Below are positions 10,778 to 63,291 of a stretch of 64,000 bases of DNA, piece after piece. The stretch covers positions 10,315,947 through 10,379,946 of the forward strand of contig NC_049982.1 in NCBI RefSeq assembly GCF_000003815.2, written 5' to 3'. The notes below the pieces were generated by a model that saw only the letters and a list, made by a program, of their open reading frames with translations, was not told where the DNA came from and searched no databases. The position numbers and the translations under genes are program-made. Within the stretch, counting starts at the first letter, position 1; the number at the start of each line of letters is the position of its first letter. Source of the stretch: Branchiostoma floridae (Eukaryota; Chordata; Leptocardii; Amphioxiformes; Branchiostomatidae).

Positions 10778-11428
10778 ATGGAGGCACAACAGAACCTCAT
10801 CGTCGTCAGGATGGTGAAGAGGGAGGTTGATGGCCTGGGACTGTCGGCGAAGCGACGGACAGCAGCCGGTCATTCTGCGGTGGTCATCGAGGAGGTGATC
10901 CGAGGCGGGCCTGCTGACCAGACCGGGATGGTCCAGCCAGGGGACACCATCGTCGCTGTAAACGGGCAGGACACCGAGAGCTTGTCGTACCAGGAGGCGA
11001 CCAAGGTCATCAGAGACATCGAGCCAGGGAAGCAGGTCGAACTGGTCCTCCGCGGACCGAAGTGGTTCCACACCTACCTGGAGACCGTCCGTCTGAGCAG
11101 CGGTGAGACCAGAACCGTGCGAGTCACCAGGCCTAACGGGCCCATCGGCGCTCTCACCCTCCTCATACAGCGCATGAGAGGCAACACCTTTGACAAGAGA
11201 GCCATTCGCAGACTTGAGAATCGCGGCGACATCCCACTCTACAGCCGCAGTGTGGCGAATGCAGACGTGATCAAGAGCATACCGAACGGCACCATTGCGA
11301 ACGGCTGTCCAGTTACCGGCCACAGGGCGTCCACGGTGGGGCCATCCGCCACCAGGAGACCAGTGCGGCTGAAGAACTGGCTGAACGAAAGAAGAATTCA
11401 CGACAACCTACACGCCAAAGCAAACGAC
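10778..11428 (+). CDS. NOS exon 1: PDZ domain and beta-finger
   Basis: This exon encodes 217 residues. Residues about 9-95 form a PDZ domain: a GLGL carboxylate-binding loop, then a GGPADQTG...[11 protein letters not shown] core typical of PDZ strands and helix. After it comes [15 protein letters not shown]...TVRVTRP, which lines up with the nNOS beta-finger extension that docks on PSD-95 or syntrophin PDZ domains. Vertebrate nNOS carries ETTF there; this protein has ETVR. The rest of the exon is a low-conservation linker to the oxygenase domain. The acceptor before the ATG shows that transcription starts in an upstream non-coding exon. Confidence 0.9.
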
Positions 11429-14400
11429 GTATGTACCACTCCTCGTTGTCAGTTTGATGTGTATCACACGGGCTACGCAGCAAACTGAAACGGTTTCTTT
11501 TCGAATATCATGTCTATCAAATGGAATGTTGCCTGATAAAATCCTAGCATACAAAACAAAGCACTCCCCTCAACGCATAACATAATATTCAATCATAGAT
11601 GTCTTTATCTCCTCCAGGTGAACCCGTGCTCTGACGGTAAATGTCTCGGTCCGCTGATGCGACCACGACCGTTCACAACACCCGGCTACTTCCGGCCGAA
11701 GGAAGAAGTCCTTGAACAAGCAGAGAAGTTCATCTTCGAATACTACGCCTCCTTGAAGAGGTTTGTGCTGACTGTTGTTTGTAATGAAAGCATTGCCTTT
11801 ATGCCATTACACCTTCGGATAGTTGATATGTTTACCAACGCGAGATTCTCACTACTTCATCTACAACAGGTCGGATGCTGCTGACCGTGACAGACGTTGG
11901 AGCGACGTCCAGGTACAGATCGAGGAGAAGGGTGTGTATCACCTGACGTATGACGAACTGGCGTTTGCCGCCAAGATGTCGTGGAGGAATTCGCCCAGGT
12001 GCATCGGACGTATCCAGTGGTCCAAACTGCAGGTAGTGTTGTATACATTTCTACTTCTAATTTTCCCTCGGTAATACATGGTTTTGAGATGAATCCTATC
12101 ATACCAAAACATATTTCTCATTGACAAATCTATATGTTTGTATTTTTCGAAGTTGTTTGACGCCCGTGAAGTCACAACAGCCCGAGGAATGTTCGAGGCT
12201 ATCTGCAGACACGTCAAATGGTGCACCAACGACGGGAATATCAGGTCAGCGAGAAGAACTGTTTGTTACTTGTGGTGTTCTTTCTTCAGTGCCCAAAGAT
12301 ATGCTTTAGAAATACAAAAAGATGTCCGTCTACTCTCACGTTTAGTGACAGCTGTTGTCTGAAAATTGACGGTGCTTGAATTTAGGAAAAGTTATAATTA
12401 GTGACCAGTATACAATAAGAAAATGTACATGTTACTTCCACAGGTCGTCCAGAGCAACGGGTGCTTTTATAGTAAATCTTGGCCTCTTTTCCTCTCGGCC
12501 CCTTTTCCTTTGTTATCAATATCAATATCTATACTAACCTTAGGTCAGCCATCACTGTTTTCCCGCCACGCACGGACGGTCGCCATGACTACAAGGTGTG
12601 GAACGGACAGTTCCTGAAATATGCCGCCTACCAGCTGCCTGACGGGTCCATCCTCGGCGATCCCATCAACCTCGAGTTCACAGAGGTCAGACTATAAAGG
12701 AAAATGATTTTTACTTTCAATGTCCACTAGCCTTCACGAGCTGTCAGAAACGACTTGCTGCATTTGTACCCTTAGATAACCAGCCTCTTGTTACGTTTGT
12801 TCCCAGGTGTGCCAGGCTCTGGGCTGGAAGGGGGAGGGCACACGGTTCGACCTGCTGCCCCTGGTTCTGTCTGCTAACGGGGAGGACCCGGAGTGGTTCG
12901 ACATCCCCAGGGACATCGTCATGGAGGTCAACATCACTCATCCCAAGTGAGTCAAACTACGGGACAGTTATTTCTGTTAAGTGGGACTCTGTCCCTTAAT
13001 CTCTGACTAACAGCAACGTTTTCCCGAGGTACGACTGGTTTAAAGGGGTTGGATATTAAGTGGTACTGACTCCCTGGTTCTCCCATAGGTACGACTGGTT
13101 TGAGGAGTTGGGTATTAAGTGGTACTGTGTCCCCGCCGTGTCCAACATGTTGTTTGACTGTGGCGGTCTGGAGTTTACAGCAGCTCCCTTCAGCGGCTGG
13201 TACATGGGCACGGAGGTGGGCAGGGATCTGTGTGACGCCAACAGGCTCAACATCACCGAAGTAAGAATTTACGGCCGAATTTACTACAACGTCATTATGA
13301 ATTATTACGTTTCTAGCTGTAGGGAATTTTGTTTGATGACTTTTGGGACCATAGAACACTCCTTCGTCTTTATCCTCAAGATAAGCGGTGAATTAGAAAG
13401 CGCAGCCACGGGCAAAAAAAGTCATATATCTTGCTCTTCTCGTACTAGCCCATGGCAGCAAGAGATTGTGTATTATACAGGCAAGCTGTGATCTTGTTGA
13501 TTCCATTTTCATTTCTTACCATGTTTGCTGTCAACTTGTGCACCGGTGAAGTAATTGAAATTCTGATAACTTCTTCTACTAACAGGCCGTAGGGAAGAGG
13601 ATGGGCCTGGACGTCGCCAGAAACTCCTCTCTCTGGAAAGACGCTGTTTTCGTGGAGGTGAACATCGCCGTCTTGCACAGCTTCCAGGTACTGCAAGTAT
13701 TTGGACTAACAGTGCAATATCATGGTCAGGGCAAACTTGTAAGGAACCGTTATAAGTTTTCTTCCTATAGCTAGGTTCACAAGGCAAAATAGAATGACAA
13801 GTGATGGTAACAGAGGACTACGTGTTGATAATATCGATAAAGAGGTCTGTATCTGTGTCTATACAGCCGGTATAACCGCCCTTCCGCGTAACACACTGGT
13901 CAGCTTCGCAGGCACACGGCACAACAGCAGCTGGTTATATTACACTGAACGACCCGTCACACCTAATCTTTGCACATCTATCTACAAGCGTTCTTTAAAA
14001 CTATCAAGAGAAGATACCCCTTCTGTGGGTCCTGCTTGTCTTACACAAGTTCTTATTTTCTCTCGTGTTTGCAGCGGAACAACGTGACGATTATGGATCA
14101 CCACACAGCTTCGGAGAGCTTCATGAAACACCTGGAAAACGAACAGCGCCTGCGCGGAGGCTGTCCCTCCGATTGGGTCTGGATAGTGCCCCCAATGTCA
14201 GCGTCTCTCACCGAAGTTTTCCATCAAGAGATGGCGAACTACCACGTGAGACCGTCCTTCGAATACCAGGTAAATTGTACAAGTGCATCTACGGTGCATC
14301 CACTTGACCGCTCATTACTACTTGCAGCCCAACCCAAGGCAATCTAGACATAATCGCCCAAACTCATACAAACCCATTAACTTAAAGACTAATAAAGACT

Positions 14401-32033: not shown

Positions 32034-35000
32034 CTAAAAGTCGTCATCATCTAAGTAGCTAAAGTCTCTGTCACCAAGATTGTACATGTAAGGGTCTTTG
32101 TCTTCCATCTGAACTCTGTGCACGCTCTCGTCAAGAAGAGTTTCCGGATCCGGAAATACCAAATTCGGCAGACCGGACTCGTTCCCCCTCGGCACGGGAT
32201 CACCGGCGGAGACGGACGGATTCGGCCCAAAGTCCGCCCAGTCCTGCACTTCGCCGGAGCCGAAGAGGAGGTAGAGCAGGCCGGCGCACAAGATCAGTCC
32301 TGCCGACACGATGAACACGATGTTCCATTCTTCTGGCGTCTGATAGAAAAGAGGGAAAGTTTAGTATCGTTTTCAAGTCATATTGTGACTGTCCTTGGTG
32401 CTGAATGCGCATCAAATGACGTATCTACTTTCTAAGGACTAGTATAGCATCTTCAAGGTTAGCATTTATATCTCTCCCTGTCGTTGCATGTGTGTATCTA
32501 TGTGTGTGTGTGTGTGTGTGTGTAAGTGTGTGTGTGTGTGTCTGTGGGTGTGTGTGTGTGCGTGTGTTTGTGTATGTTTGTGTGTGTGCGCGCGCGCGTG
32601 TGTATGACAAAAATCGGCAACTCCTGTATGAACAACACGTACCTTGTCCATGGTGATGGCCCCGATAGCGACGGGACAGGCCATGCCTATTATGGTGGAC
32701 AGGGAACCGGACAGGCCCATGATGGAGCTGGCAAACTGGGGCGCGATGTCCAACGCATTCACGTTATATCCTGCGAGAAACGGCGAGAGTTTAGACTCAA
32801 ACTAGACTAGTCAGCTCTGATACTCAGTCTAGAATTTAAAGCTGTGAATCGTTACAGATATTCTACTATCCAATGAAACAAGTCTTGCTATATTGTTGAT
32901 CATGATGAAGTACCTGCTGAGAGGGGGAAGGACTGGAAGAACAGGGCGACACTCAGACAGATCGTCGACACGTAGATGTTTGATGTCATACCGACGGTTA
33001 GAAGAAGGGCGCCCTCTACGAACATACCTGGTAAAAACAAAATAAAACGCGCCAAAATCAGCTGCACTCCTTTCTCAACATTTTCAGCATCATTAAAATG
33101 ATATTTCTGCAACAGGAACAGTTGCAAACATTTTATAATCCGACAAGAACAACAAGAAAGAGAATTTCTTTCTTTCTATCTTTTTCTCACACCAGAAATA
33201 TTTTCTACGCAAAAAGATATTTCAAGTAACGTTACCCATAGTGTTGAATAGTTTCCTCATGGTGGTAGTGGACATGGACTGTGTTCTCCACACCCAGTCG
33301 GCCAGAGACCCGACCAGGGGCAGTCCGAACATTAGCAGGAAGAAGTGGAGACCCGCGAAGGCACCGGCCTGCGTGAAACAATCGAGATATATAACTTTAC
33401 AAAACTCTGATATTGTCAGTGAACTGCTTGACGCAGGCTGTTATCACTTACAGTTCCGATTATGTTGAGCATGCATTGTTCCATTTTATGATGACCAAAT
33501 AACTTTGTTTTACCCGTAAACTAATCCAATGTCAGACAGTATCTTTCCAACAATGAACTTGTAAAGGAAAAACTTTTATTCTAAAACTTACAACTCTCAG
33601 TTTATTGACGTAGTGTTTTTCTCTGATACTAAGGATAAGTCGCTATGAAAGTAATATTTCTGCGTCAGTGATGTGAATTATCATCGCCAGGTAAGAGACT
33701 TTGATGACGTTGAACAAACCTCTAGTTCGTTGACCTTGAATGACTGCACGTAGTACATTGGTGCGTTAAGCAGCATGAGGTACACCACCCACTTCACACA
33801 GGTGTCACAAACCAAGATGGCATACACCGGAAGTGACGTCAGAAGGTGTCTCCATGGAGTCTTCTGTGGCGAGACTTGTGTAGGAAGGTCTGGTCCGACT
33901 GATGACGCGGGGGAGGTCGGGGTTTTCGCGGCGGGCTCGCTTGCTTCTGTTGACGCCTCTGAGGCTTCGGACTGGGGCACGAGAAATAATTTGTATTAAG
34001 AAATGCGTTTATTAAAGCAATGAATACCACTTACAACTAGACAATTCGTATCACTCATAATTATCATTGAGGGAGCTAGTATAAAAGCAAGGAGGTTTAA
34101 GCTCCTTGATAAAAGCGATCAATTCCAATGACAATGACGTTGTCTTCAGCGTCGCACGGTAACAAGTCTCAATGATGTTTAAGGATGTAAGAAATGATAA
34201 TGTTGTACCATAAAGGCGATAACATTTAGTCTCATACTTTTGCGTCAGGTTCACTGGGTGATATGATTCCCGGATGTGACGTCATGCTATCTTGGATGAA
34301 CTTCAGCTCCTCGGGATCAAGGTACTTGTCGACTTCTGGTGACTCGTACACCATGGTGTACCATATGAGGGACCAGACCAGGCCGACACCACCTGCGGTT
34401 CATATGGAACAAAATTATCGTCGTTAATTCTTCATATGCCCAGGGACTGTGATATGCCCCTGTGATAACTCTGCGTGCCGTATAATTCAGAGTGCTCCTC
34501 TATGCGCGAGTCACATGATAGGGAAAACTATATTTCGCGTTATTTAAATGTTAGGGAGATGATAATGACTTCTTTGGGAAATTTTCCACTCAGGTTTTCA
34601 AATGTATGGCGATAACGTATATATGTTTAGGCATTACTAGCGAAAAATATCCAAGTTCACAACATTTACCGTAAATCCAAAAGGGAAACCGCCAGTCGAT
34701 GTTGAAAACCGCCACTCCGGATACGGGCATGCCTATCACTATCCCTATGTATTGGCCTGAAGAAAAACAAAACAAGGCATGTGATGACAGAATTAGTTTT
34801 GCAGCAGATTGATTCAGCGTTTCTATTGAATGAAAAAACGACTGTTGTGTTGACTAAAGTTACCTGTGACTGTGATTGACGTCAGCTTGCTCCTCTCGGC
34901 CGGCGGGGCCCAGAACGTCCAGATGCCATAGGAGGCAGGGATGGTGAGACCCTGAAGAGGAGAAAATTGAACCAAAACAATTTCTCTGTCAATTATGTTA

Positions 35001-36585
35001 TGATGTGGTAGACCACTAATGATGCAACATGTCGTTCAATCTGTTGACCTTTGTGTTCAATCGGGCATTAAATTGTGTCCGGCCTAAACACGTCCATTTA
35101 GAGTATACCGTTAGCTCACTGGTGACCTTTATTTGAAATAATCATTTGGCAGGATATATATGTGTTTTTTTACAGTCTGCCACAAAGCAAAAATTCTCTT
35201 TAGACATTATCTTCCCTACAACCAATAGAGCACTAAGTATGCTTAGAGCATTTAAAGAGTTTTTCTCTGGTAATCCCTAAGCAAATAAGTAAGTTCAAGT
35301 GTTTTACTAGAAACACGAAGGTGATATTTTACCTCACTCATGCCTTGAATCACTCTCAGAGCCACTAAGATGGAGAAATGCACCGTAGCAGCGACGGGAA
35401 TGAACAGGTTCACCAGACTGGAGACCGCGATCGACAGCACAAAAACACTACGGGAAAACACATGGGAGGTTGATAACAATACAACATATTTGTATTTTCA
35501 AACCCACATAATATTCAATCTGATGAAAACAACACCTTGTCGACATTTCCTGACTTACATTGTTGCTGGGTACCGCGAAACCAGAAATCCTCCCAGCGGT
35601 CTGGACAGCAGGAAGCCCAGGAAGAAAGCACCATGGATCACCCCCACAATCAACATGGTCCACTCCAACTCAGATGGCTGAAAACAGAACACGTCAATAC
35701 CGATCGGGCGGGTTATTCTATACCTTTGAATTAGACGAACTGACTTGAAAAAGATTGTTTGAGTATTGGTTGTTGAAGTGTTAATAACAAAAATCATTGA
35801 TCTCCATTGCTCGATGGAGTAACGAAAAACAATCACTTTATCATTATTCTTTCATTATATCGTCAATATATCGATATTTGACTTGCAATTGACTTTACTC
35901 GTTGATAGGTCGATACTTACGAGAGGTTCTGCGCACTTACCTGGAACAGCTGGTTCATGACGTCCTCGTTGTTGACCATCTGCGTCGCAGCCACGCCCAT
36001 GTTGGTCCGGGCGCCGTACTCGATCAGGAACCCGATACACGACAGCATCGCGATCTGATGGAGAAGGCATTGGTAAGTTCATTACCCCTTATGTAATGGT
36101 CACATTTCCCAACCGGGGCCCGGCGGGCAGTTTTGCGGGAGTGAATAAAGGTGTAAGAAGTGGGCAACATCCTAGATGATCTTCGTTCAGGAAGCCAAGC
36201 CGAGACAGAAAGAGATCAACATATATACAAAAAGTAATCCTCATGTTTTTTTTAATTTTTTGTGTTAAGTTGCTTTTCTATCATACTTTCCGTTTTCCGC
36301 AAACAACCCGCCCGGACACCGGTTCGGCATTAAATACCGGTCATAAGTTAAACAAGTGTAACGAACAAACAACGTCAATACTTTTATTCATCTAAGTACT
36401 ACATTCTATGCGTTATGATATCGGATTGGCCTGTGTTTGTAAGGGAAGAAGGAAACTGTTTAATAATGTTTCCTACCAGATATCTCTTGGGCATACAGCT
36501 ACAGAGGGCCTTCTGGGTCGGCAGTTGGAACCAGTCTACAGTTGGGTAGTTTATGTCCGGCTTAGGTACGCCGTCAAGAACTTTC
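32034..36585 (-). CDS. Unit B of the double transporter (exons 15-26), VGLUT/sialin-like
   Basis: Closer to textbook SLC17 than unit A. Seen: CMPKRYL before TM1, YGARTNMGVAATQMV (TM1 Arg kept), GVIHGAFFLGFL...PLGG (TM2 His kept), VIQGMSEG (TM4 with Arg and Glu), PASYGIW...PPAERS, PWRHLLTSLPVYAILV (TM7), MSTTTMRKLFNTMG, YNVNALDIAPQFASSIMG (TM10-11), and GEVQDWAD just after TM12. The acidic tail ends YLDDDDF. The TM7 Arg of VGLUTs (CRSW) is CVKW here, so glutamate specificity should not be assumed. No in-frame ATG precedes the first conserved exon: the first Met is inside CMPKRYL. Confidence 0.85.
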
Positions 36586-39500
36586 CTGGATAGGGAGGAG
36601 GAACAATGGAGACAAGTCAGTGATAGATAAATGACGTCAGTGATAGATAAATGACGAAACGCAGGGATTGCGTTAGGTATGGGTTGACAGCATGGGTTGA
36701 CAGTATGTTTGGGATTGCGATGCCCTAATGGGGAGAACCAGGTGTCATTGAATACAGTACGAGTCTTGAGTGTTCTCCGCACTTGACTGGTGTGTTGCGC
36801 CTTTAGGCGGTTATACCAGCTATACGGATACACATTTCAAAGGAGGAAAGAATCTTTTCCCTTTTTGTGGTGTTTTCAGAATCCACCGTGAGAGAACACA
36901 TCGATATCACCAGGACTTACTTGTACCACGACATGGGAGCGCCTGTCTCTCCGGCATCCTCCTTCGCCTCGCCCTCAGGCTCCTCCCTCTTCTTGAACCA
37001 ATCAGGGAACGGGATCTTCACTTTGGGCGCGGAGATTGACGGGAAGGGGAACTTTGGAAGTTTGATCTTGGGTCGGGGTTTCTCGACTACGATCTTCAGG
37101 GGCTCTGCACTGGCCAGAAGACCATAGATGATTGCCCCGAGTACGATGGCCCCTACCATGCTTCCTATGGCCACTTCAAACCCACGGACCTGTTCCAAAA
37201 TGTTAGAAAAGCAAGTATTAATTATAGATGTATAACATGTCTGTGTTTCCTGTTCAGAATTGAATCTTCTGATAATGTAGTCCAATGAGTAACGTTTCTT
37301 TGACGACGCCTTATACGACAAAGTTATGAAGCCTAGGTCCTCATCGACTACGATGGACGAACACAATCATAACTGTACCAAAATTATATAGAACAGCAAC
37401 AGCTTTACTGTAATGAATACATACATACATACATACATAACATTTCATACACTGGTATAAGGTAAGTGTTGTCAGGACTTACTCCAAACTTGCTGATGAA
37501 TTTGAAGAGCATGGGGCAGCCGAGCAGCGCGATGCTCGCCAGGGTCTTCGCCACGCCCACCAGGATCCCGGCATACCTGTCAGCTATGTCCAGTGGAGTC
37601 ACCGTAAACCCTGGGAAAAATAAAGGGATTGAAAACACATTAGTTGATAAATTCCAGCTAAAAAATACTTCTTAAAGACTACTATTCTTTTCTTACCTTA
37701 TCTTCACCCACAGTCCAAAAAGTAAACAACAACCAAGGACGTTATGATTTTCTATTCTAATATTTATTTGTCCTTTCAGAAATGGTTACAGTATTCAGAA
37801 GCTATCCAATAAATCATCACATTAGTTAAATGAACAAAAAAACACAGGGTGCCACAGCTCTTGCATAAAACGGACTCTTATATGTAATTGATTGGAGAGA
37901 ACAGTAAAACTATATGACACAAGCATATAACCCATAATATGCTGACCTGCTGCCATGGTGATGCCCATGAAGACCATGAAGGCGGCAGTGCCGTAGTACG
38001 TCACCATCTCGTCCTTAGTGAGGATGATGACGAGCATCAGGAGGGCCCCGCAGACTTGTCCTGAGAATATAACGCGCATTCAGTATATACAAGGACCAAG
38101 TGGTGTCTGTTTGCACCAAAATAACAGCGTAAAAGAAGTGCGCTTGATGTAGCTATTAATGTTGTCATACAGGAAGAAATTAGGCTTTCGTCGATAACGG
38201 TACCATGATACCGAATACAAATACAATTCAGAGATATTCTGTCACATACCAACGATGTGGAAGCCTTTTCTGAGTACGGTGATGTCAACTTTTCCAGAAT
38301 CCAGCAGCTGATCTGCCAGGAAGCCGGCGATCAGGAGTGTGATGGTGGTGTATGTGCCTAACCACGGGCCGTACTCACACTGATGAAAGACACATGCAGA
38401 GTTTGTGCACGGGAATCTGAATATTGTAACCTCAGACAGATTGTAATGTTTTACCAAAGGAATACAGCGGGACTTTCTCCATAATTGGTTTGGACTGTAG
38501 TTGTTTAGGAAGGGTTTAAACGGCATGTCTGACGTTTGAAACAGTTATTCCAAAGAAAATATTCATTAATCGATTTTAAGTGAAAACTACGTACCAGTGA
38601 CTACACCAGAATAGATTAGACTGTTGCTTACTGTTTTGATGTTAAAACCATGATGATTCCCGCGAGTAGCCCTGTACTCATACGGAATGGACACTCTCTT
38701 GGTTAGCTCCCTGTAGCCAGGTGGGCTTGCCGCCTTTGTGAGATCCTGAATCATGTTCTCCAGACCTCCATCGTTCTCGTCGTTGAGTACGACTGCGCAG
38801 AAGTCTGCCAGGTGGTTGATGACGACACAGAAGGTGAGCGTGTAGACCAGGTACGCCAGGATGTAGGCCACGGCAGGCTTGTTGAAGATGATGTCTCTCC
38901 ACGGAGGGAACTTCTTCTTAAGGTCTTCAACCTAAAAAAACATTGTCATTAAGTTCTAGGGCTATCATCAGACCTCCGGACCGACAGCTTCTAATGACAT
39001 ATAACCATGGCTTACTGCATAACCATCAATGAAGTAAGACCTCATCATTGATGCCGTTTTCAAAGCCGCTTACGGGTTTTCTAGTTTGAAAACAGAAAAA
39101 TGCACGGGGTTCACTACACGTTGTTCGGCAGTGAAATATTACACCACCAATGTGGTAACACGGTGGATTGTATTTCTAATGATATACATTCATAATCTTA
39201 TAACAGTTTATAATGATACTGGTTACCTTTGCCAGCATGTCCTTGGCCTTGTCCGCTACCTCAGACATGTCAGGCGGGGTGGGGCTGCCGCTGTCGCCCT
39301 CCTCTGTCCCACCGCGCAGGCGCAGAGGACCCCATGTTTCAGCCTATTAGACAGAAACGTCACAACATGAAAACTGAAATAGAATTCAGAATCCATCCTA
39401 ATTGTTTACTTTGAATATGTCAGAAACCAGTGGGATCTGCAAACCTATACAAACACTTTCCCGATTCCCTTCGTTCTTCACCCAGCTTGCAAAGCAACTT

Positions 39501-42500
39501 AAGGTTTCTAACGCTAGCTATGATATACATCTTACTCACCACTCCAAACCGAGCAGACAGCTCCCTGACAATCCGCGTGGTTTTTCTCTTCCGGATGGCT
39601 ATCGACCTGGCCACGATGTCGTCATCCGGCATCGGGTATTCGGATTCCGAGTCGTCCGAACTGTCGGCACCGTGCACGATCTGCAAAAAGGAGGTCAACA
39701 TGTTACTAGTCAGCACCCATCTAGTTGTACTGTATGACATTCAAAAATACGGATACATGAGTCATTGAGGAATATTCAAATATAAGTAAACATACACGAT
39801 GAGACAAGAAATGATGTATGAGAAACAGTTATGGCGCTCTTCTGTTTGCCTATCTCCTCTTTCTCACACTGCATATATTTACCCTTTCCCGAATGTCCGA
39901 ATCCGACAATGGCCGAAACTTCTCAGATGACCAAGACTCTGAAGAAGACGAGTACGATCTCGGCCTCGATCTCACCCGGGCCTCCGTCGGACCCTCTGGA
40001 GGGGGATCGGCACTCTTCGGATCCGTCTTCGGCTCAGTCGGTGTCTCCTTCGGTGATTCGGTGGAGTCCGCAGGCTTGTCTTCGCCGTCGGCTGCAGGCT
40101 GTGTGGGTGGTTTGTTTTGTGGCGAAGAACTTGTTATCGTTGAAGTGGTGTTGGTGAACGCTCTAGAAACGGGTTTCTGTCACCAGAAAAGGTGTTAGGT
40201 GTTAATACATCCACCCCCAGAATGTACACAATACAGACTGTAGTTATATTATCCATCACCAACTTTATGAGTGCCATAATCTAGTCGATATGACCGTCGC
40301 CGTTATATTAAGAACCATCACAAAGTAAGGGGTTGGGAGGGGGAGGGTCTTGAACATCCCGAGACACGAGGGGATATGCTAGTTACTCAGTCAGTATATA
40401 CAACAAAACATAGTTCCATTAACATTACGAATCTCTGAACGAAGATATTTACAATACGAATGTTTTTCGGCGTAGCAATAGTAATAGTACACAGCTCGGT
40501 TGCCTATCACTGGCAGCACTTGTTGTTTGCCAATTGACCTACGTGTGCAGCCTATCCTTAAGATATTGATAGTCAATAAACCTTTATTACCTACAGTTTT
40601 TAATAAGAGCATGAGATAATAGTTATTGTCATTACTTTGACAACATAAGAAATAGACTACATCGCTTACCTTGAGCTTAGTTGGAGCAGCTCCGTCATCT
40701 GCAGGTTTCGCTCCGTCGTCCTCATTGTTCCCGGGGTCGTCGTCACCTTTCGCGCCGTCGTCACCCTTCGGGTCCTCACCGTCGTATGCCGAGATGCCCT
40801 TGTCCTTCCCCTTGGTCACGTGAATCAGCTCGTCTACGCTCATCTTCGGGTCGTCTTCGGGAGTGCTCGGCGATGAGAAGAAGAACAGCAGGGCTAGCAG
40901 CGCCCCAGTACCTCCTAACGTTGTACAGCACAGATCGGCATATTATGCGAAGAAGTGTTTTAAATATTTTGGACTGAAACGATTTGGGTTCAATTCAGTC
41001 TAATCATTATATCGTGATTGGAATCAAATGTAAGAAGTTTGGTCACAGTATAGGTCTTGTTATCTTGTCTGTTATCTGTGGTATTCAACACCACATCTCA
41101 ATGAGGACTTCTTCGAGTCCGGCCATGGTACATGGTATCAATTTGGTTTGGTTATACAAACAATCAATCTTAGGTTATCAATCTTAGACTATGATTGATT
41201 GCCATGGCACGACTCATCAAACGTCTACGTCAACATCTGTGTATACACTAACCGATGACGTAGAAGGAGTAGAACCAGCCGATGGCCTCGTACAGCGCTA
41301 CCGACTCCAGCATGCCGATGGTGTGTGCAGACGTCAGGCCGGCCGTGATGAGGGACACCACCGTGCTCCGCTCGTTTTTAGCCGCCCAGTGAGACATCAC
41401 GCCGTACGTCGCCGGCTCGATTATACCCTAGCATCAGGAAATAGAATAACACCGTTCTTCTTGAAATCACAGAAACAACAAATCATAGAAAAAGTGTGAC
41501 TTTTCTCCATACTCTGAAAAAAGAAACCCAACTCAACTTGTCCAGCACTAGTATTTGAGTAGCCTATTGTTACGACGACGTCAACCATTGTCCTGTATGT
41601 CTCCTATGTTCTATTACGTACTGGCCCTTGGGCATGAACTTGCAAAAACTTTCTATAAGCAATTTATGTGTTTGACGCTCTGTGGGTATTTCTCTCTGAT
41701 ATCGAAAAAAATCTTAGGCTCACTTCCAGCATTCCACTTTCAATGTTTTCTTTTGGATTATTTTGATGAACCATCCAAACGTATATTACATGGACATGCT
41801 CATCCTTTCAAAATGGAACCAAACACACGTTATAGCACTCCAATTGCTTTGTGGGACTTACCGTCAGACCGCCTTGTATAAGTCGCAGAGCACACTCGAT
41901 GTAGTCCATCCTACAGTTCAGAGCTAGAGGCGTCACCATGTGGATGATACAGGCAGCAAATATTGTACCACCCAACAACCTAAGACGGTACAATGATTAA
42001 AAAGGTGTTTATCAGAGTCCTTTAACTTAATATTTTACATAGAGATAGAATGTTTGGCAAAAGTCACTGCCGTTAAGAGGTTTATCGAACTGGTACAGGA
42101 CTATGTGTTTATGGATTTATTAGTACCACAATCGTGTAAGTTGTTAGCCTGAGTACCACACCATCATCCGTAGTGACCGCTGGATTGAGGATTGAGCCAG
42201 TGGTCACTACAGAGAACGGTACTCGGGCTATAGTAATTTGTGTCTTTTCTCGGTCTGGCCCTCCGCGAAAATTGGCCTTCAAGCCTTCTTTTCATAGATA
42301 AGAAAAGACGCAAAGAAACAAACTAACTAACTAACCAACTGACTGTGTCCTTACCTTACGGGTGAGAAGATTGCTGACATCATCCCGCCGGTGTATGACG
42401 TCAGCGTGGCCCCAGCCAGGAAGAAGATGTGAGTACTGAACACCATCCCTGCTGGCGACATGGTGGTGGCCTGGGGACGGATATAGTAGCAGATGTGTAT

Positions 42501-45500
42501 TATACCATGTTTTCTCAATAGAATTGTTTAATGCTCTAAAATATAGATAATCTACTCACTACTGAATCAACAATTAGGTTCCCTTAGACGGATCCCAAGC
42601 CTTCTTGAGCTTACTGAATATCTGCCACAGAAAGTTATGTCCTGGACGTTTTAACGCAATTACAGTCTTTCCTGTGGTCGTTTTCCGTTTGCCTGTAGCC
42701 ACTACTAGATTACAGGATTAGATGTAAATCGCGTCGTTTATTGGATAAGCGGACATATACCACGGTACATAGACTTACCGCCATCATCTGTCCGAGACCG
42801 CGTTTGTCCTCTTCCTCCTCAGTCTCGTTCAGCCCGGGGATGAACATAGCCATGGCCTCCGCCATGATCTTCTCAAAATCTATGTCTATCTCTGCTGCCT
42901 CGTCCTGCAGCGCCGGAATCTGTGGAAGCACGTCTTTCTCCCCACCTTTCTTCGAGTGGGCCTGGGCTTCTGATGACGTTTGGCTTGATTTTTTCAAATG
43001 TTTCAAGGACTTGGATTCTGCATCATATTCTGCTGTGTCGCGTTTTGTTTTACTGTGCTCATTCTCCAATGAATAAGAGAGGAAATTTCTGAGAAAGGAC
43101 ATGTACCAATGTCTGGTGATGGGCTGAGGCCGCCATTCATCTGTTTTCGTGTTTGGATTAAATTCACGCTGAGATCGCACCACCAGACTGGACTCGCCAT
43201 TTCCATCCAGAAGTTCCTCTCTGAGAAAAACTTCTAAGAAACGTATATGTTTGTCCTGCGGCAACCCTTTCTTATCCGGAAGGGGAATGTCAGGAATGCC
43301 GGGAATGTCTTCTTCCTCACTGCTACTCCCCATCAGTTCAAGGAAACTGACTTGCTGAGATGACGAGCTCGACAGAGAATTCGGCTTGTCTTGTTTCGCT
43401 GCTGCACTTTCTTTTAGCTTTCTGTTCATGACATCTTTTGCTAATGATGATAAGGACTGAAGGTCCTTTTTCTTGGACATGCGTAGTAATTCATCATGGA
43501 ATAACTCGTTTTCTAGGAAATGTTTCAAAAATTCCATTTGTTTTTGTTTTTGTTTGGACATCGGTGTGTCTGAGCCATGGGCTGTTCCCCTGTCGTCATG
43601 TGATTCCCCTGTTTCCGAGCTCGGGTTATCGAAGATAAGATTTTTTCTCAGAAACGTCCGAAGTCTCTCGATGTCCCGGTCGGTGAGCGTTAGAGTAACC
43701 CCGCTCTGTGACGTCAGAGTGTAGGGTAAGCCCCGCCCACTTGTTTGACAGTTACAGTCGGGCTGCTCCACCCTGGACTCTGGAGGCGCTCCCTGGTCAC
43801 CAGGTTTGTCCTGCAGATATCAGAGTATATATTACTTAGTGATGCAGGATAGAACGGATTCAAATTACTAACCACGAGACGGCAATCGCTAAGAGATGGT
43901 TGAGCAATCAGCCTGAGTAGGATTTAATTTGTGCGACCCTTGATTCCATAGCTCTAACATGATGCAAGATGTGAACTTTGAAGTATGATTTAAAGGCGCT
44001 CTACTTAAGATGAGGACAATACAAATTTTCCTACAATTTCTTCATATGATAATAGTAAGTTAGGTAAACCCTATAGCATTGTATGTCGATATTTAGGAAG
44101 AGAAGTTGCAACATTATTGCATCATACAAACGCGCTTAAAAACTTCCAACAGAAACACACAAAACGTAAAATATTAATTCTTTATCTATGCTATTCTTTG
44201 AGCGATCTGCCGATCTTTGGTCACTCATCCGTCTCAGCCTCTGTTCCACATAGCTCACGTAATGCAGTTTTCTAGCTCATCGGGATGTCAATACGATAAT
44301 GAACTGATCTATTACAGTCATGTTCAGTAGATGTATTGCTTTGCTACCCTACATCATTTCGATAATGCACAACCGCGTATTTAAAGTCAATATTGTACTC
44401 TTCTCCTGTTCAATCGCGTCACATACAATTCATAGAAAGTAAGGCGATTAGATGGCAAATGAGGTGCATTGGTTTTCCACTGAGACGAAACAAAGTTAAA
44501 AGATCTTGGTCAAAACTAACTTACAGATGATTTAACAGGGCAATTATCATGTTGGCATGATACACAAAAACGGTTACTGACTGCTTTAAATCACATCAGC
44601 TCAGATGAACGAACCCTATCTGTGATAAAAGTCTGTTCGATCAAACAATGAAAGAGTCAGCCAACTTCACCACCCAATTAATCAAGCATGCGCGTCATGA
44701 CGTGACAAGCGTAGTGGATGGGCCAACCGCCATCTTGTTTTCATATCGCTTGATCGTGAAACAAAAGGATCTGACTCGTGTGTCAACCACCTGCAGGCAG
44801 GGTCGCCCTGCACATAACTCTAGTGATATAGCCTGCGGTGGCTGCACGGAAAATACACCAGCGAAACTGGTTATGGGTAGGAGCTAGCTATTAGTATCAC
44901 ATGTTTTGTTAACATATAAACTTTAACTTCACATCATAATCTCTCGTCTCTCTTGTCTTGATGACTTGTGACACAGTTTTTTTAGGAAGCAACGGACGTC
45001 CACACAAAAAATAATCTTCTTCAGTTAAGGATATTGGTAGGACAGATTTCAGTCGAGATTGCTTTTCATATTTTGGAATTAAAGTCTAATTTATAGATTT
45101 GGGTAAGTCCAATATTTTGTATTGGAAGTTTTAGTTCAACTTTTCCAGAATGCTTTTGTTCGCATTTGTTCACTTTGTCACATAGTAGTATTACCCATGT
45201 TGCTTGATGTTGTATGTATTTACGAAGTTTTGCAAAAACAATGTAAGCATATAAAGAAGAACATACATGTAACTAGATAAATAAGAACATATTAACTAGA
45301 CTAAATTGCGCTCGCCATGTATAAGCAAGGCACACAAAGGGAACGATCTAGATGAAATCAACGGAACTGCGTGATGAATAAAAACATTCAATGGCTTACC
45401 TTCAGCATAGCTGACTTGACCACCTTGACCACGGCCACCTGGAAGTTGGGCTGCAGCCCTCCGTGCGCGATCAGCGCCAGGATCATCAGCCCCAGCACGG

Positions 45501-45546
45501 AGAACCGGCGGGGCACCCTGCGCCACGCGTCCGACACCAGCCCCAT
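32034..45546 (-). CDS. Predicted fused double SLC17-type (MFS) transporter, 26 exons
   Basis: Two complete SLC17-like units in one continuous exon chain of about 1,681 aa. Exons (minus): 45546-45400, 43810-42779, 42470-42355, 41979-41862, 41427-41253, 40914-40670, 40176-39883, 39680-39540, 39343-39227, 38931-38632, 38379-38250, 38060-37947, 37610-37483, 37189-36921, 36585-36477, 36054-35941, 35677-35559, 35447-35333, 34951-34864, 34756-34670, 34392-34238, 33971-33720, 33368-33236, 33027-32914, 32770-32643, 32339-32034. All are in phase with GT-AG. An in-frame TAG four codons before the ATG fixes the start. The unit A-B junction (exon 14 to 15) splits a Lys codon as AA|G. SLC17 proteins carry organic anions (glutamate, sialate, phosphate) across vesicle, lysosome or plasma membranes. 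The substrate is not predictable here. Alternative: two adjacent genes, discussed under findings. Confidence 0.75.
32489..32605. repeat. (TG)n-rich microsatellite in transporter intron 25
   Basis: About 115 bp of TG/GT dinucleotides with interruptions, ending in a CG-alternating run (GCGCGCGCGCG). Begins 38 bp beyond the exon 25 donor. Alternating purine-pyrimidine sequence can adopt Z-DNA; no function is shown. Frames across it on both strands are spurious. Confidence 0.95.
36921..45546 (-). CDS. Unit A of the double transporter (exons 1-14)
   Basis: First SLC17-like unit. Seen in order: TM1 (RRFSVLGLMILALIAHGG), a 344-residue inserted loop, TM2-3 (FSTHIFFLAG...TGG; SPVRLLGGTIFAACI), TM4 (ALRLIQGG), the PATYG...ERS block, TM5-6, a cytosolic loop of about 265 residues over exons 6-9 (acidic, then Pro/Ser-rich, then a basic RKRK cluster), TM7-12, and TPLDIADRYAGILVGVAK, the SLC17 hallmark in TM10-11. 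It ends in a Lys/Pro-rich linker (PKIKLPKFPFP...). By eye the TM1 Arg of VGLUTs is Gln-Pro here and the TM4 Glu is Thr, so transport by this half may be altered or lost. If exon 14 is read past its donor, TAA follows the Lys at once (stop at 36919-36917). Confidence 0.8.
37413..37437. repeat. (CATA)n microsatellite in transporter intron 13
   Basis: About six CATA tetranucleotides, uninterrupted. Confidence 0.8.
42145..42230. mobile_element. TAGCC-type hairpin MITE, copy 1 (transporter intron 3)
   Basis: The left arm TAGCCTGAGTACC...GTAGTGACCGCTGG pairs with the right arm CCAGTGGTCACTAC...GGTACTCGGGCTA. About 86 bp in all, nearly a complete hairpin. The same terminal sequence type is found at 63486-63590. 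No convincing target-site duplication here. Confidence 0.7.
42779..43810 (-). CDS. Exon 2 of unit A: 344-residue insertion between TM1 and TM2
   Basis: A single phase-0 exon that replaces the short first loop of normal SLC17 proteins. Hydrophilic and rich in Ser, Lys, Glu and Asp, with no membrane segment. Four short amphipathic repeats of the form xFLxxFLxxxL occur at 43672-43625 (RTFLRKNL), 43537-43490 (EFLKHFLENEL), 43246-43199 (RFLEVFLREEL) and 43105-43058 (SFLRNFLSYSL). One N-glycosylation sequon (NET) lies near the end before an EEEE run. SLC17 topology puts this loop in the vesicle lumen or outside the cell. I do not recognise the domain. Confidence 0.8.
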
Positions 45547-45596
45547 CACGACCCGCTACTCACTACCTGGGAGGCGCACGCACTCGGCTCATCCGG
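45547..45596 (-). other. 5'-UTR part of transporter exon 1
   Basis: A good acceptor (AATTTTCAG) ends at 45597 on the minus strand, and the stretch to the ATG carries an in-frame TAG. This suggests an untranslated first exon farther right, which I could not place; a GC-rich patch at 46175-46255 is a candidate. Confidence 0.5.
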
Positions 45597-48500
45597 CTGA
45601 AAATTAAGGAATTTACTGTCTTAGAATGAATATCAATTTAGTTGCTCATGTTAACTTGAAAGTCCATCTGTGTGGGTAAAAGTAATTCCAGATCAGAATT
45701 AAACTGTAAGTTTGAAAAACTGATTTAGCCAAATTTTCGACTAATCAACTCCAGTAAGGCAGTATTACTTGAATTTTCAAACGTCTGGGTGGCCCCATTT
45801 AACCTGGGTTTTTTTTTCATGGGCCAGGTATACAAAAACATATAAACCATCAATGTTCTTTGAAGGATGCACAAAGTCAATAAATCAAACCGAGAGCGAA
45901 TTGTAACATATGTACTTTGAAACGATGAGTTTTTTCTGTAATGAACATTAAGGTGAACGCAATTTCTGATCGAAAAACACATAGTGTTACCTGCCTTCAT
46001 TGTGAAGGAACTTGGTTTTTCACTACAAGTACCTCCATTGCATGGCAATTTCAAAACGAATCTTAAGCAAGAAACTTGATGGGCCAACGTATTGTCTTAA
46101 AACGCTGGAGAATCGTCCAGAGTTACTTGTCAAAAACCTGCTGTGTAAATCTGCATCTGCATATATACCCCCAAATGACCCCGCGAGGGGCAAAAGTAGG
46201 GGGGGGGAGCTGAGGCTCTCGGGTTAGGGCGGGCAGGCCGCCTGCCTGGCACGGAAGTGCTCAACTAGTATCCATTAAAGCATTGACATTGTCGTAGGTT
46301 CGTGCGGTCCAAAAAGCATCGTCGCATGTTTGTGCTGACAAGTTGTTTGGGTCAGAGCAAAACGAGGGGGAGACCTCTTAACACTTGATAAGGTGATAAC
46401 AAAGAGGGAGCGTGGTCAGAACCAGTCAGGCGGACAGTATTGTGTTGAGCCGTTCAACATTCTTAGCCAGAGAAAATGGCGGCTAGCCTAGGGCAATATA
46501 GATGCCTCGGTTTGTATTACACAGCAATATGTGGCACAAAATGCATTTCTTTGCTTGATTACAACACCGATATGTATGCAAACATTATGTCTCAATTGCT
46601 TTTATGAAGTGAATCTGATGATCATTATATTTTCTCTTTAACGTCCGTTAATTCAAAGTTATAAGCGCGATCTTGAAAATCTTAATTGCCCCCACATATT
46701 TAACAAAAATAATTATCTATCCCGCGCTTTTTAGGCAGAAAACAGAAAACTAGTTATACCGGCTTTAGCACTGAATGGTTTATGGCCCTTAGGAGAGAGC
46801 ATCCAGGTATCTACAGCTTTATATTCATGCATCAATGATGCTAAATTGTAATTGGTTCGTTGAACAATGAATGGTGCCACTGTTAGTCAGCTTTGTGACC
46901 ATTACTTGTAGAATAGGGCATGAAATCATGGTAATGTGCTTTTTTATCATCAAAGGTTTCATTTCTCTGATAAGAAGACGTCTTCGGAACATGAGATCGC
47001 ACCAGCTAACAACTAGAGGCACTTGAAAGACCCACAACAATATAACAAATTTAGAATACTTAAAAAGTGGCGATTGGTTGGAAAGATATGAGACTTTTTT
47101 ATCACTGATAAAAGATCCTTGGAATTACATAGAAGCCATGATAAACTTTGACTTTGACAGCTTTGAATGGCCTGTATAGTGCACCCTTAAAAGTCAGACA
47201 AGATCTGTTTGAATCCGCTGTTTAACGCAAAAGAAAAAAAAAAGATGGCGGACAATACTTTTGGAAGACGTGTACCCCCGTAACAAGTAAATGGCAGAAC
47301 AGTTCGAACTTTTCCGGATACATCCTAATTGAGTTCTCTCGAGGAATCACACTTTTGATCATACTGTATCTTGAACAAGTATCTTAATTGTGCAATGTCT
47401 ATGTATAAATAAAAAGATTAATTGTAGTAGACACTGGTAGCGTCAATAAAGGCACAAGACACGAGTCAAAAGTTTGAAATTATTCGGAGTAAGTTAGCAT
47501 TTGGATGCAATAGAATGAACATCTCATCATTGATTACTATTTGTAGAGGCATAGGATTCGGTATCAGAGTCAATGTAACGAATAATCGATAGCATCACAA
47601 TCGAAGTGAATGCTATAACATCGGGACTATGATTTCAGCAGCGCTAACTTAATCTGAAGCAATATCAACTGGTGTAGGTCAGAAGTGACAAAGCTCTCTC
47701 AGAATCAGCTGATGAGTCCATTTTGTAGTTTACTTCAATTTCGCCAAGAAATTTGATAGAAAATTCGCAGGCAAAAATGAGCCCCTCCCCCTTCCCCATA
47801 CCTAAACTATTGTCACAGAAAAGTGCACCTGGTGCAAGAACAGTCGAGTCTAGAACTGAAATGTTTCCAGAAACAAAGAATTTACACACCCTCAAATTCA
47901 TCCCAGAGATGACTTCTATCAGAAAAACATTATTGAAGGCTCCTTACCGTCAAGTTTCTCCATGTTGTTCCTCAAGAAATCCAAAAGGGTGACAATTAAA
48001 AAGTGAAAGGCCTAAAGCGACCTCGTTTTCCGCACGTACCAAAACGTAAATCACGGGGGGACAACTTTTCATGAGCTCCCTTCCTTTGAGGTACGACATC
48101 TAAGCTGAATCTTTACTTTATATATTTACATCTTGCTTGAGATTATCGGTCTATTGTTAATTCTTATAGGGACGTTGTATGTAAATAAGCTGTGATATTG
48201 AGCATAACAAATAACAAGAGTTATCTCTTTTTTTGTGGTTCCGTCCTTTTTACAGCGTCAGCTCTAATACGATGATTAGCCAGACTTGTCCGACAGGTTT
48301 CGGCAGTCTCCCCGCCACCAGTACAGGAGCACCTCACATGCACCCCTGGGCACCCTGCGCAGTAGAGCATCACGGGAACTCAACGTGCACCCGATCGGAA
48401 CAGAAAAACGGCAACCGCTTTGACAACTGTAATACTAGTAATCAACGCCTGAGGCAAACAAGTCCCTTACCAACGATTTACCTCTCAGTATATAAGGTTT

Positions 48501-48695: not shown

Positions 48696-49880
48696 TTTAT
48701 TACACAGATGCACATTTCAGTACAGATGTAATTTTAAAATATTAGCTGCTAGCATACGAAATGTACCTAATAGTGCACCACTGATGAGAATGTTGCTCAA
48801 ATACAAAAGTAGCATATCTGAATACATTAGTCACCTGTATGAGAGTAGGTTAAGAAATGTAAATTGGGGGAATACAACCAAAACATACATGTAAGCTTGA
48901 AGAAGGGACAGGAGTTGGACAGGCTATAAAACAAATGGTAGTGACAGGGTCAAGATATAATACAACAGAGGTATATGCATAAACTGTACTCTCTTAATAT
49001 GCCAATTTCTGACTGTAAAATAAGAGGCAAAAAACAATCAACAAATCTAAGCACCAAATTAGTATGGCTTGCCACATAAAGGATGTTATTCTTTACACAC
49101 AAAAAATAAAGCACCATACATGTTTTCATACATATTTTAGTTTAAACACATAAATGTAACAAATAGTGGCCTAATAGGCAATGGAAGTACATCGAAGGCA
49201 AAATTAAGGAAGACGATAATTTTTGCTATCTAAAGGTGTAATGACTGCATGTTTTCATAGAAAACAAAATGTACATTTACAGAGATTGCAGGCAGGTTTC
49301 AAACATACATGTACACACAAACAATGGTGGGGACACCAAATGCACATAAATTTCTGTTGTACCACTATTAACTGCATAGTTTGCTCCACAATTTTCATGC
49401 TGCTGCCATTTACATTAACATCCAGCTAGCAGAGCATTAGTTCCACTTGATCAATTAGTTACTACGCTTACAGGTAAAACAATTTTTCCTTAGTATGTAA
49501 GTTTTCTGTCTTGAGATATGAACATCTGCTTTGTTAGAAAAACTACCTTTGCTCGTACTTTGTTCCTATCAATTGTTTGAAGTACTTATAGTCACCGCTA
49601 AAGCCCCTATGTCTTTCTCACTCATAACATTGTCACCTTCTATTTGCAAATATGCTATGAAATAAATGCAAACCATCAAATAAATGTATCATTTTATCAT
49701 TCATAGTACAGCTATAAACAAGATCACAGCTTTTTTTACATAGGCAAACCGAGGTAATTTTGCACTTGGCACACATACACTTTTCAACATAGAGATACCA
49801 ATCATTCATTCTACTTGAATGTGATCCTAATCAGGAACTTAATCAGTGTTCATGTGTTTTCTGGGATGTGGACTTCAGCT
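48696..49880 (-). other. Probable CKAP5 3' UTR with poly(A) signal
   Basis: AT-rich, gene-less stretch immediately after the CKAP5 stop. A minus-strand AATAAA (TTTATT at 48696-48701) gives a 3' UTR of about 1.2 kb. Other AT-rich near-signals exist, so the end point is approximate. Confidence 0.5.

Positions 49881-63291
<13,411 letters not shown>

Follow-up and report, generated by a model that had tools for sequence, protein, structure and literature searches.

A probable double SLC17 transporter gene in the lancelet Branchiostoma floridae

Vesicles and lysosomes are filled with glutamate, nucleotides and acids by carriers of the SLC17 family, whose proteins are, to our knowledge, known as single units of 12 helices. 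A different layout is found in NarK1-NarK2 of Paracoccus, where two MFS transporters lie tail-to-head and helices 12 and 13 are connected by a variable linker; the available part of that source reports a functional interaction between the halves, takes the linker as a tether and states that each half alone supports growth (PMC5217062). Within SLC17-type carriers, the excerpted text on DgoT describes its residues R47 and R126 as SLC17-conserved and gives simulations of an R47Q variant in which the outer gate was not closed by galactonate (PMC11649914), and R184 and H128 have been linked to luminal Cl- binding in the accessible part of a study on VGLUT1 (PMC12240346). Here we analyze a locus of the lancelet Branchiostoma floridae contained in a stretch of 64,000 nucleotides of contig NC_049982.1 (the window, to whose first letter positions refer unless a contig is named), which departs from the one-unit SLC17 layout in that two units, termed A and B, fall within one open frame under the predicted splicing. 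It is quite probable that a single gene at this locus encodes a double SLC17 (VGLUT-like) transporter, in which exon 14 would be spliced to exon 15 to yield a single chain of 1,681 residues with a probably transport-dead unit A tethered to unit B.

In the spliced model the minus strand from 45546 to 32034 provides 26 exons that join into a single open frame of 1,681 residues, with GT-AG borders at all 25 introns and an in-frame stop at 45558, 5' of the start codon at 45546. Exons 1-14 constitute unit A (1,108 residues, with a Pro/Lys-rich linker at its end) and exons 15-26 constitute unit B (573 residues, with the Lys at the joint counted in). The last exon of unit A, exon 14 (37189-36921), encodes transmembrane helix (TM) 12 and the Pro/Lys-rich linker and ends in TAC AA|GTAAGT; the first exon of unit B, exon 15 (36585-36477), begins at 36585 with CCAG|G AAA. 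Removal of the 335-bp intron 14 (36920-36586) rebuilds the Lys codon in phase, and the first-pass annotation of this DNA was correct both on this point, including the frame of 1,681 residues, and in noting that a TAA (36919-36917), which lies within the donor, terminates unit A immediately if exon 14 is left unspliced. When scored with a weight matrix derived from the other introns of the gene, with intron 14 left out, its donor reaches 9.04 bits, a value equalled or beaten by 2 of the 841 non-model GTs in the gene span, and its acceptor 6.44 bits (16 of 775 non-model AGs). The same annotation had also pointed to the lack of a minus-strand AATAAA between the units. This is true of 36920-36586, where neither AATAAA nor ATTAAA occurs on the minus strand and the single variant present is a weak AAAAAG at 36866, but the argument drawn from it is weak because 16 of the 25 introns, intron 14 among them, have neither hexamer, and we rejected it as proof that no gene ends here.

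The part of exon 15 that precedes the first helix of unit B is a coding-like linker (KVLDG...LPTQKALCSC), followed by an in-frame ATG at 36494 immediately 5' of PKRYL (MPKRYL). The earlier statement that no in-frame ATG lies ahead of the first conserved exon of unit B holds for the open extension of exon 15 into intron 14, which scores -0.21 per codon, and overlooks the ATG within exon 15 itself. The 30 codons 5' of 36494 have a codon score of +0.32 per codon in frame as against -0.35 and -0.37 in the other frames; this score is matched by 3 of 861 open 30-codon windows from the other 24 introns, and of the 1557 windows taken from the training coding sequence 310 score no higher, these windows overlapping such that the counts are not independent. 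The KALCSC-MPKRY stretch aligns to KAPLCDCTCFGLPRRY of VGLUT2, with low column confidence, and in P1, the closest single-unit paralog, a candidate N-terminal exon (the best of 21) ends in NFCPCPK ahead of FMPKRY. From the codon usage and this CxC motif, 36494 was judged unlikely to be the sole start of unit B. A hidden ATG-first exon was sought across the gene span with a donor threshold of at least 2 bits, in a scan that stopped 30 bases before exon 15; none of the 83 right-phase candidates begins in the 335-bp intron 14, and two begin in exon 14, at the in-frame ATGs 37159 and 36934.

A search of the same genome with unit B recovered 44 exon-level matches, which include a gene on contig C2 (B'), and upstream of it in the same orientation is a degenerate A-type unit (A'). 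This A'-B' pair (C2:12650377-12665328) has the same order and strand as the window pair, an in-frame linker and the A-type insert between TM1 and TM2, which is common to A and A' (WYxxFxRxFL). From exon A2 to the stop the C2 model comprises 23 exons, all in phase and open for 1,098 residues, and a first coding exon at 12650377-12650493, which supplies an ATG and TM1, brings the total to 1,137 residues. B and B' are 40% identical, and A and A' 28% and 36% identical over two stretches. The C2 joint, at about 1.6 kb, is longer than that of the window and has a separate linker exon (12659380-12659560), which encodes a stretch beginning with TWPPKKPKLPKLEWPSLPKLKKLKCPS, is in phase at both borders and consists of three repeats. 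Pairwise comparison of these repeats yields 9 synonymous against 6 nonsynonymous codon differences in the fusion frame. A rival open frame that starts with ATG has 0 against 17, and the third frame, interrupted by stops, has 9 against 8; no ATG is present between the start of the linker exon and the nearest upstream in-frame stop, three codons away. One protein with two SLC17 units is thus supported, and better than the first-pass annotation could show, since a second A-B locus exists, the linker resembles coding sequence and the phases match.

Upstream of A', contig C2 has yet another A-type unit, designated A'' (C2:12641144-12645823), which is 58-94% identical to A' per exon. Its TM12 exon ends in phase 2 with AA|GTAAGT, as exon 14 does, with a TAA directly after the donor. 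An in-phase downstream exon recognized by eye reads (K)GWEFKKPKLPKWLKRR up to a stop, and this reading (WEFKKPKLPKWLKRR, followed by the stop) resembles, again by eye, the linker start WPPKKPKLPK. If this exon is used, the donor-adjacent TAA would be intronic, the KKPKLPK linker start would be conserved coding sequence, and A' would differ from A'' by having no stop at that point. A comparison of 11 exons (within A2-A14) between A' and A'' gives a dN/dS of 0.18 over 511 codons, which indicates that the A-type units are under purifying selection. No B unit was detected after A'' by tblastn (E <= 1) in 7.7 kb of partly masked sequence, a search in which single exons can be missed since the TM1 exon of A', which lies in that stretch, was missed too; likewise, no TM1 exon of A'' was seen by eye in the 3.1 kb upstream.

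Both units belong to SLC17 on the basis of their MFS_1 domain and their closest solved relatives. The Pfam MFS_1 model matches unit B with 141.8 bits and unit A with 75.1 bits over two stretches. In comparisons with PDB sequences, unit B has VGLUT2 and VGLUT3, then sialin and DgoT, as its top matches (best VGLUT2, E 5e-106); for unit A, queried with its loop inserts taken out, the best match is VGLUT3 (E 1e-23) and all eight sequences at E <= 0.1 are VGLUT or sialin. The units differ in the key residues of SLC17, namely R88, H128, R184 and E191 in VGLUT2 numbering. Unit B retains the equivalents of all four, that of R88 in exon 16 (36054-35941, also carrying TM1), that of H128 in exon 17 (35677-35559) and those of R184 and E191 in exon 18 (35447-35333). 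In contrast, the set is broken in unit A, which when aligned to VGLUT2 has Gln at R88 in exon 1 (45546-45400, with the start codon and TM1) and Thr at E191 in exon 4 (41979-41862), with the R184 equivalent of the latter exon, and that of H128, retained. In A' the alignment places Met at R184 and Gln at E191, and by eye a Tyr stands in the place of R88. The E191 region is incomplete in the rows of the lancelet VGLUT and of P2, a further VGLUT-like unit. A fifth residue, R322, marks glutamate carriers, and on this residue neither unit qualifies as a VGLUT proper: unit B has Val with Lys one residue further (exon 22, 33971-33720), and unit A has Tyr (exon 10, 38931-38632).

These patterns suggest that unit A does not transport and that unit B may do so, unit A being a tethered partner. 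As to the layout, two MFS units are arranged tail-to-head, and about 12 helices per unit would place the linker in the cytosol. The 24-helix architecture proposed in the first-pass annotation is drawn from homology, and simple hydropathy on the window protein detects nine segments in A and ten in B, 19 of the 24 expected. The sequence directly shows the open spliced frame with its splice sites, the two SLC17 units, the coding-like linker, the second A-B locus and the loss of key residues in A; we infer the splicing itself, the helix count and the function.

An 11-row tree, built without the short rows C1sial and C6, unites the three A units (support 100/100) and, separately, the two B units (99/97), both clades lying apart from P1, P2 and the VGLUT group. 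The B pair falls outside the clade of VGlanc, VGLUT2, VGLUT3 and C17 (99/100), so that a grouping with VGLUT proper fails here too. With C1sial and C6 included in a 13-row tree, both clades persist (A 100/98, B 99/98), and the B pair stays together when the two C2 A rows are omitted. The separate A and B clades suggest that the A-B pair was probably duplicated as a pair, and the simplest reading is that the pair already existed when the two loci parted. Units A and B of the window are 25% and 22% identical over two stretches, and several of their exon lengths coincide: exons 12 and 13 of unit A (38060-37947 and 37610-37483) have the same 114 and 128 nt as exons 24 and 25 of unit B (33027-32914 and 32770-32643), and exon 5 (41427-41253, 175 nt) equals exons 19 and 20 combined (34951-34864, 88 nt; 34756-34670, 87 nt). 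Such matching lengths fit an origin of both units from a single VGLUT-type gene. The internal tandem duplication that had been put forward is unsupported as a recent event because the units are only 22-25% identical, and we rejected a recent duplication on this identity and on the tree; in addition, each unit groups with its C2 counterpart rather than with the other, and an A-type unit also occurs by itself. The better reading is that an old A lineage fused with a neighbor of the B lineage and that the pair was copied later.

The locus might alternatively comprise two ordinary neighbors, with A stopping at AAG-TAA and polyadenylated in or near intron 15 (36476-36055), and B driven by a promoter in or near exon 14 and starting at 36494, 36934 or 37159, the splice sites of the joint then serving the first exon of B; we regard this as unlikely. 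The TAA right after the last Lys codon, the AATAAA at 36388 and the stand-alone A'' unit on C2 would fit it, as would the three in-frame ATGs. Of these, 37159 (A at -3, G at +4) lies in a good context for initiation, such that a promoter within unit A could give rise to B alone. Against this, 36494 and 36934 have no purine at -3, a start at 37159 would put the last helix of unit A on B, and the 30 codons before 36494 are coding-like with a VGLUT-like CxC motif. Furthermore, the second locus retains the pair in order and frame, and at the C2 pair as well as in A'' a TAA-bearing donor is followed by an in-phase coding exon. Slightly less likely still is a pair of tandem genes with occasional read-through, in which the fused mRNA would be a minor chimera and A alone and B alone the main products. 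The three poly(A) hexamers of intron 15 (ATTAAA 36464, AATAAA 36388 and ATTAAA 36256), together with one situated 76 nt after the A' donor on C2, would permit A-only ends under this scheme, but in a minor chimera one would not expect a long linker that stays in frame and whose repeats on C2 differ mainly at synonymous sites of the fusion frame. Nor does any ATG-first partner of exon 15 begin in the 335-bp gap, and the DESV..VQ..PYMYN..RDF tail common to unit B and P1 is missing from unit A.

Several observations nevertheless weigh against a single fused gene with a dead first half. Separate B products could start from the ATGs in frame at 36494, 36934 and 37159, of which 37159 is in good context, and the hexamers of intron 15 mean that unit A alone could end there. 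At the C2 locus an AATAAA at 12658726, 76 nt into the intron after the A' TM12 exon, makes A-only ends possible as well; moreover, the C2 model has a weak acceptor at the linker exon (0.4 bits) and a poor one at exon A4 (-3.4 bits), it may lack some loop exons between A7 and A10, and its 1.6-kb joint contains 22 candidate ATG-first exons for B'. The loss of E191 alone is no mark of a dead carrier, P1 having Gln at this position too. In the phylogeny a constraint that unites every A and B unit in a single clade is not rejected (p-AU 0.179), the A rows lie on long branches, and A_window is unplaced once the two C2 A rows are omitted.

Under the one-gene reading, which we prefer, transcription would start upstream of 45546 and joining of exon 14 to exon 15 would lead to one chain. 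Unit B would then probably be a carrier coupled to protons or anions and residing in a vesicular or lysosome-like membrane. Unit A, with Gln at R88 and Thr at E191, would probably be unable to close its gate around a substrate; it keeps R184 and H128, which in VGLUTs are tied to Cl-, and would act as a tethered partner by which B is steadied, sorted or regulated. A short A-only form is possible and could arise through the TAA within the donor and the poly(A) hexamers of intron 15. Taken more broadly, we would give about an even chance to the proposal that SLC17 double transporters of 24 helices form an old and duplicated family in lancelets, with a conserved, transport-dead pseudo-transporter as the first half and a live vesicular carrier fused to it, and that through the stop in the splice donor the locus can also yield the dead half by itself.

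The remaining exons of the model complete the two units. In unit A, exon 2 (43810-42779) contributes the large TM1-TM2 insert with the WYxxFxRxFL stretch common to the C2 unit, exon 3 (42470-42355) has 116 nt like exon A3 of A', and exon 7 (40176-39883) encodes a long loop between TM6 and TM7, with further loop sequence in exons 8 (39680-39540) and 9 (39343-39227); exons 6 (40914-40670) and 11 (38379-38250) follow from the spliced model, as do exons 21 (34392-34238) and 23 (33368-33236) of unit B. Exon 26 (32339-32034) carries TM12, the C-tail DESV..VQ..PYMYN..RDF, which is much alike in P1, and the stop, and the earliest AATAAA or ATTAAA hexamer 3' of this stop is an ATTAAA at 31984-31979. 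At the other end of the gene, an acceptor-like ttttcag ending at 45597 (minus strand, within 45540-45620), noticed by eye, suggests a non-coding first exon further 5'; an ATG just 3' of it, also seen by eye, meets a stop after nine codons.

Other VGLUT-like sequences occur in the same genome. A likely VGLUT orthologue at about C4:6935025-6959314, assembled from separate stretches assumed to be one gene, shows 70% identity with rat VGLUT2 in those parts that align, and a motif scan of 14 kb upstream did not find its N-terminal exon. P1 lies on contig C4 about 80 kb from the window gene and is 50.5% identical to unit B over the aligned parts; it is part of a VGLUT-like cluster at C4:10262582-10277500 consisting of P1 (+), P2 (-), a partial P3 (+) and a C-terminal exon (-). 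On contig C17, around 18248250-18248820, at least four tandem, partly degenerate copies encode VLGGQLADTLRSRGWSTTVVRKLFNCGGQYR, which belongs to the latter half of a VGLUT-like gene, and look like an exon-derived tandem repeat. Elsewhere in the window, a plus-strand PDZ-domain stretch (PF00595) is present at 10778-11488, which we take to resemble the PDZ domain of neuronal nitric oxide synthase. The minus-strand stretches 49880-50500 and 54694-55128 appear to be coding parts of at least one neighboring gene, presumably similar to the C-terminal part of CKAP5/chTOG; 54694-55128 has no match in Pfam.

If the double transporter is real, a natural fusion with one half stripped of its gating and proton-coupling residues and present at two loci would be a test of partner regulation in SLC17, as well as a test case for tandem transporter genes turning into one protein. 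With A'', which ends at a stop codon of its own, next to A'-B', which appears to be fused, the same genome would present both states. No title on a double SLC17 protein appeared among the literature matches listed from one open library, and the words "fusion" and "tandem" are absent from the main text of an SLC17 phylogeny that includes amphioxus (PMC2824716).

Among known systems, VGLUT1-3 (SLC17A6-8) and sialin (SLC17A5) resemble both units in their PDB matches and MFS_1 domain, and unit B further shares with the VGLUTs an N-terminal stretch of the CxC-PKRY type. Unlike these proteins, the window protein would have two units per chain, with large inserts in unit A; moreover, unit A is without the R88, E191 and R322 equivalents of the VGLUTs, and unit B has Val at R322 with Lys next to it. 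The bacterial SLC17 homologue DgoT probably has in R47 the counterpart of VGLUT2 R88, the position at which unit A has Gln, but it differs in being a single unit and, from the excerpts of its description, an active galactonate carrier (PMC11649914). The nearest layout is that of the NarK1-NarK2 fusion, in which two MFS units are likewise joined, although that protein, by the available part of its report, is bacterial, handles nitrate and nitrite, is not a member of SLC17 and has no intron at its joint (PMC5217062).

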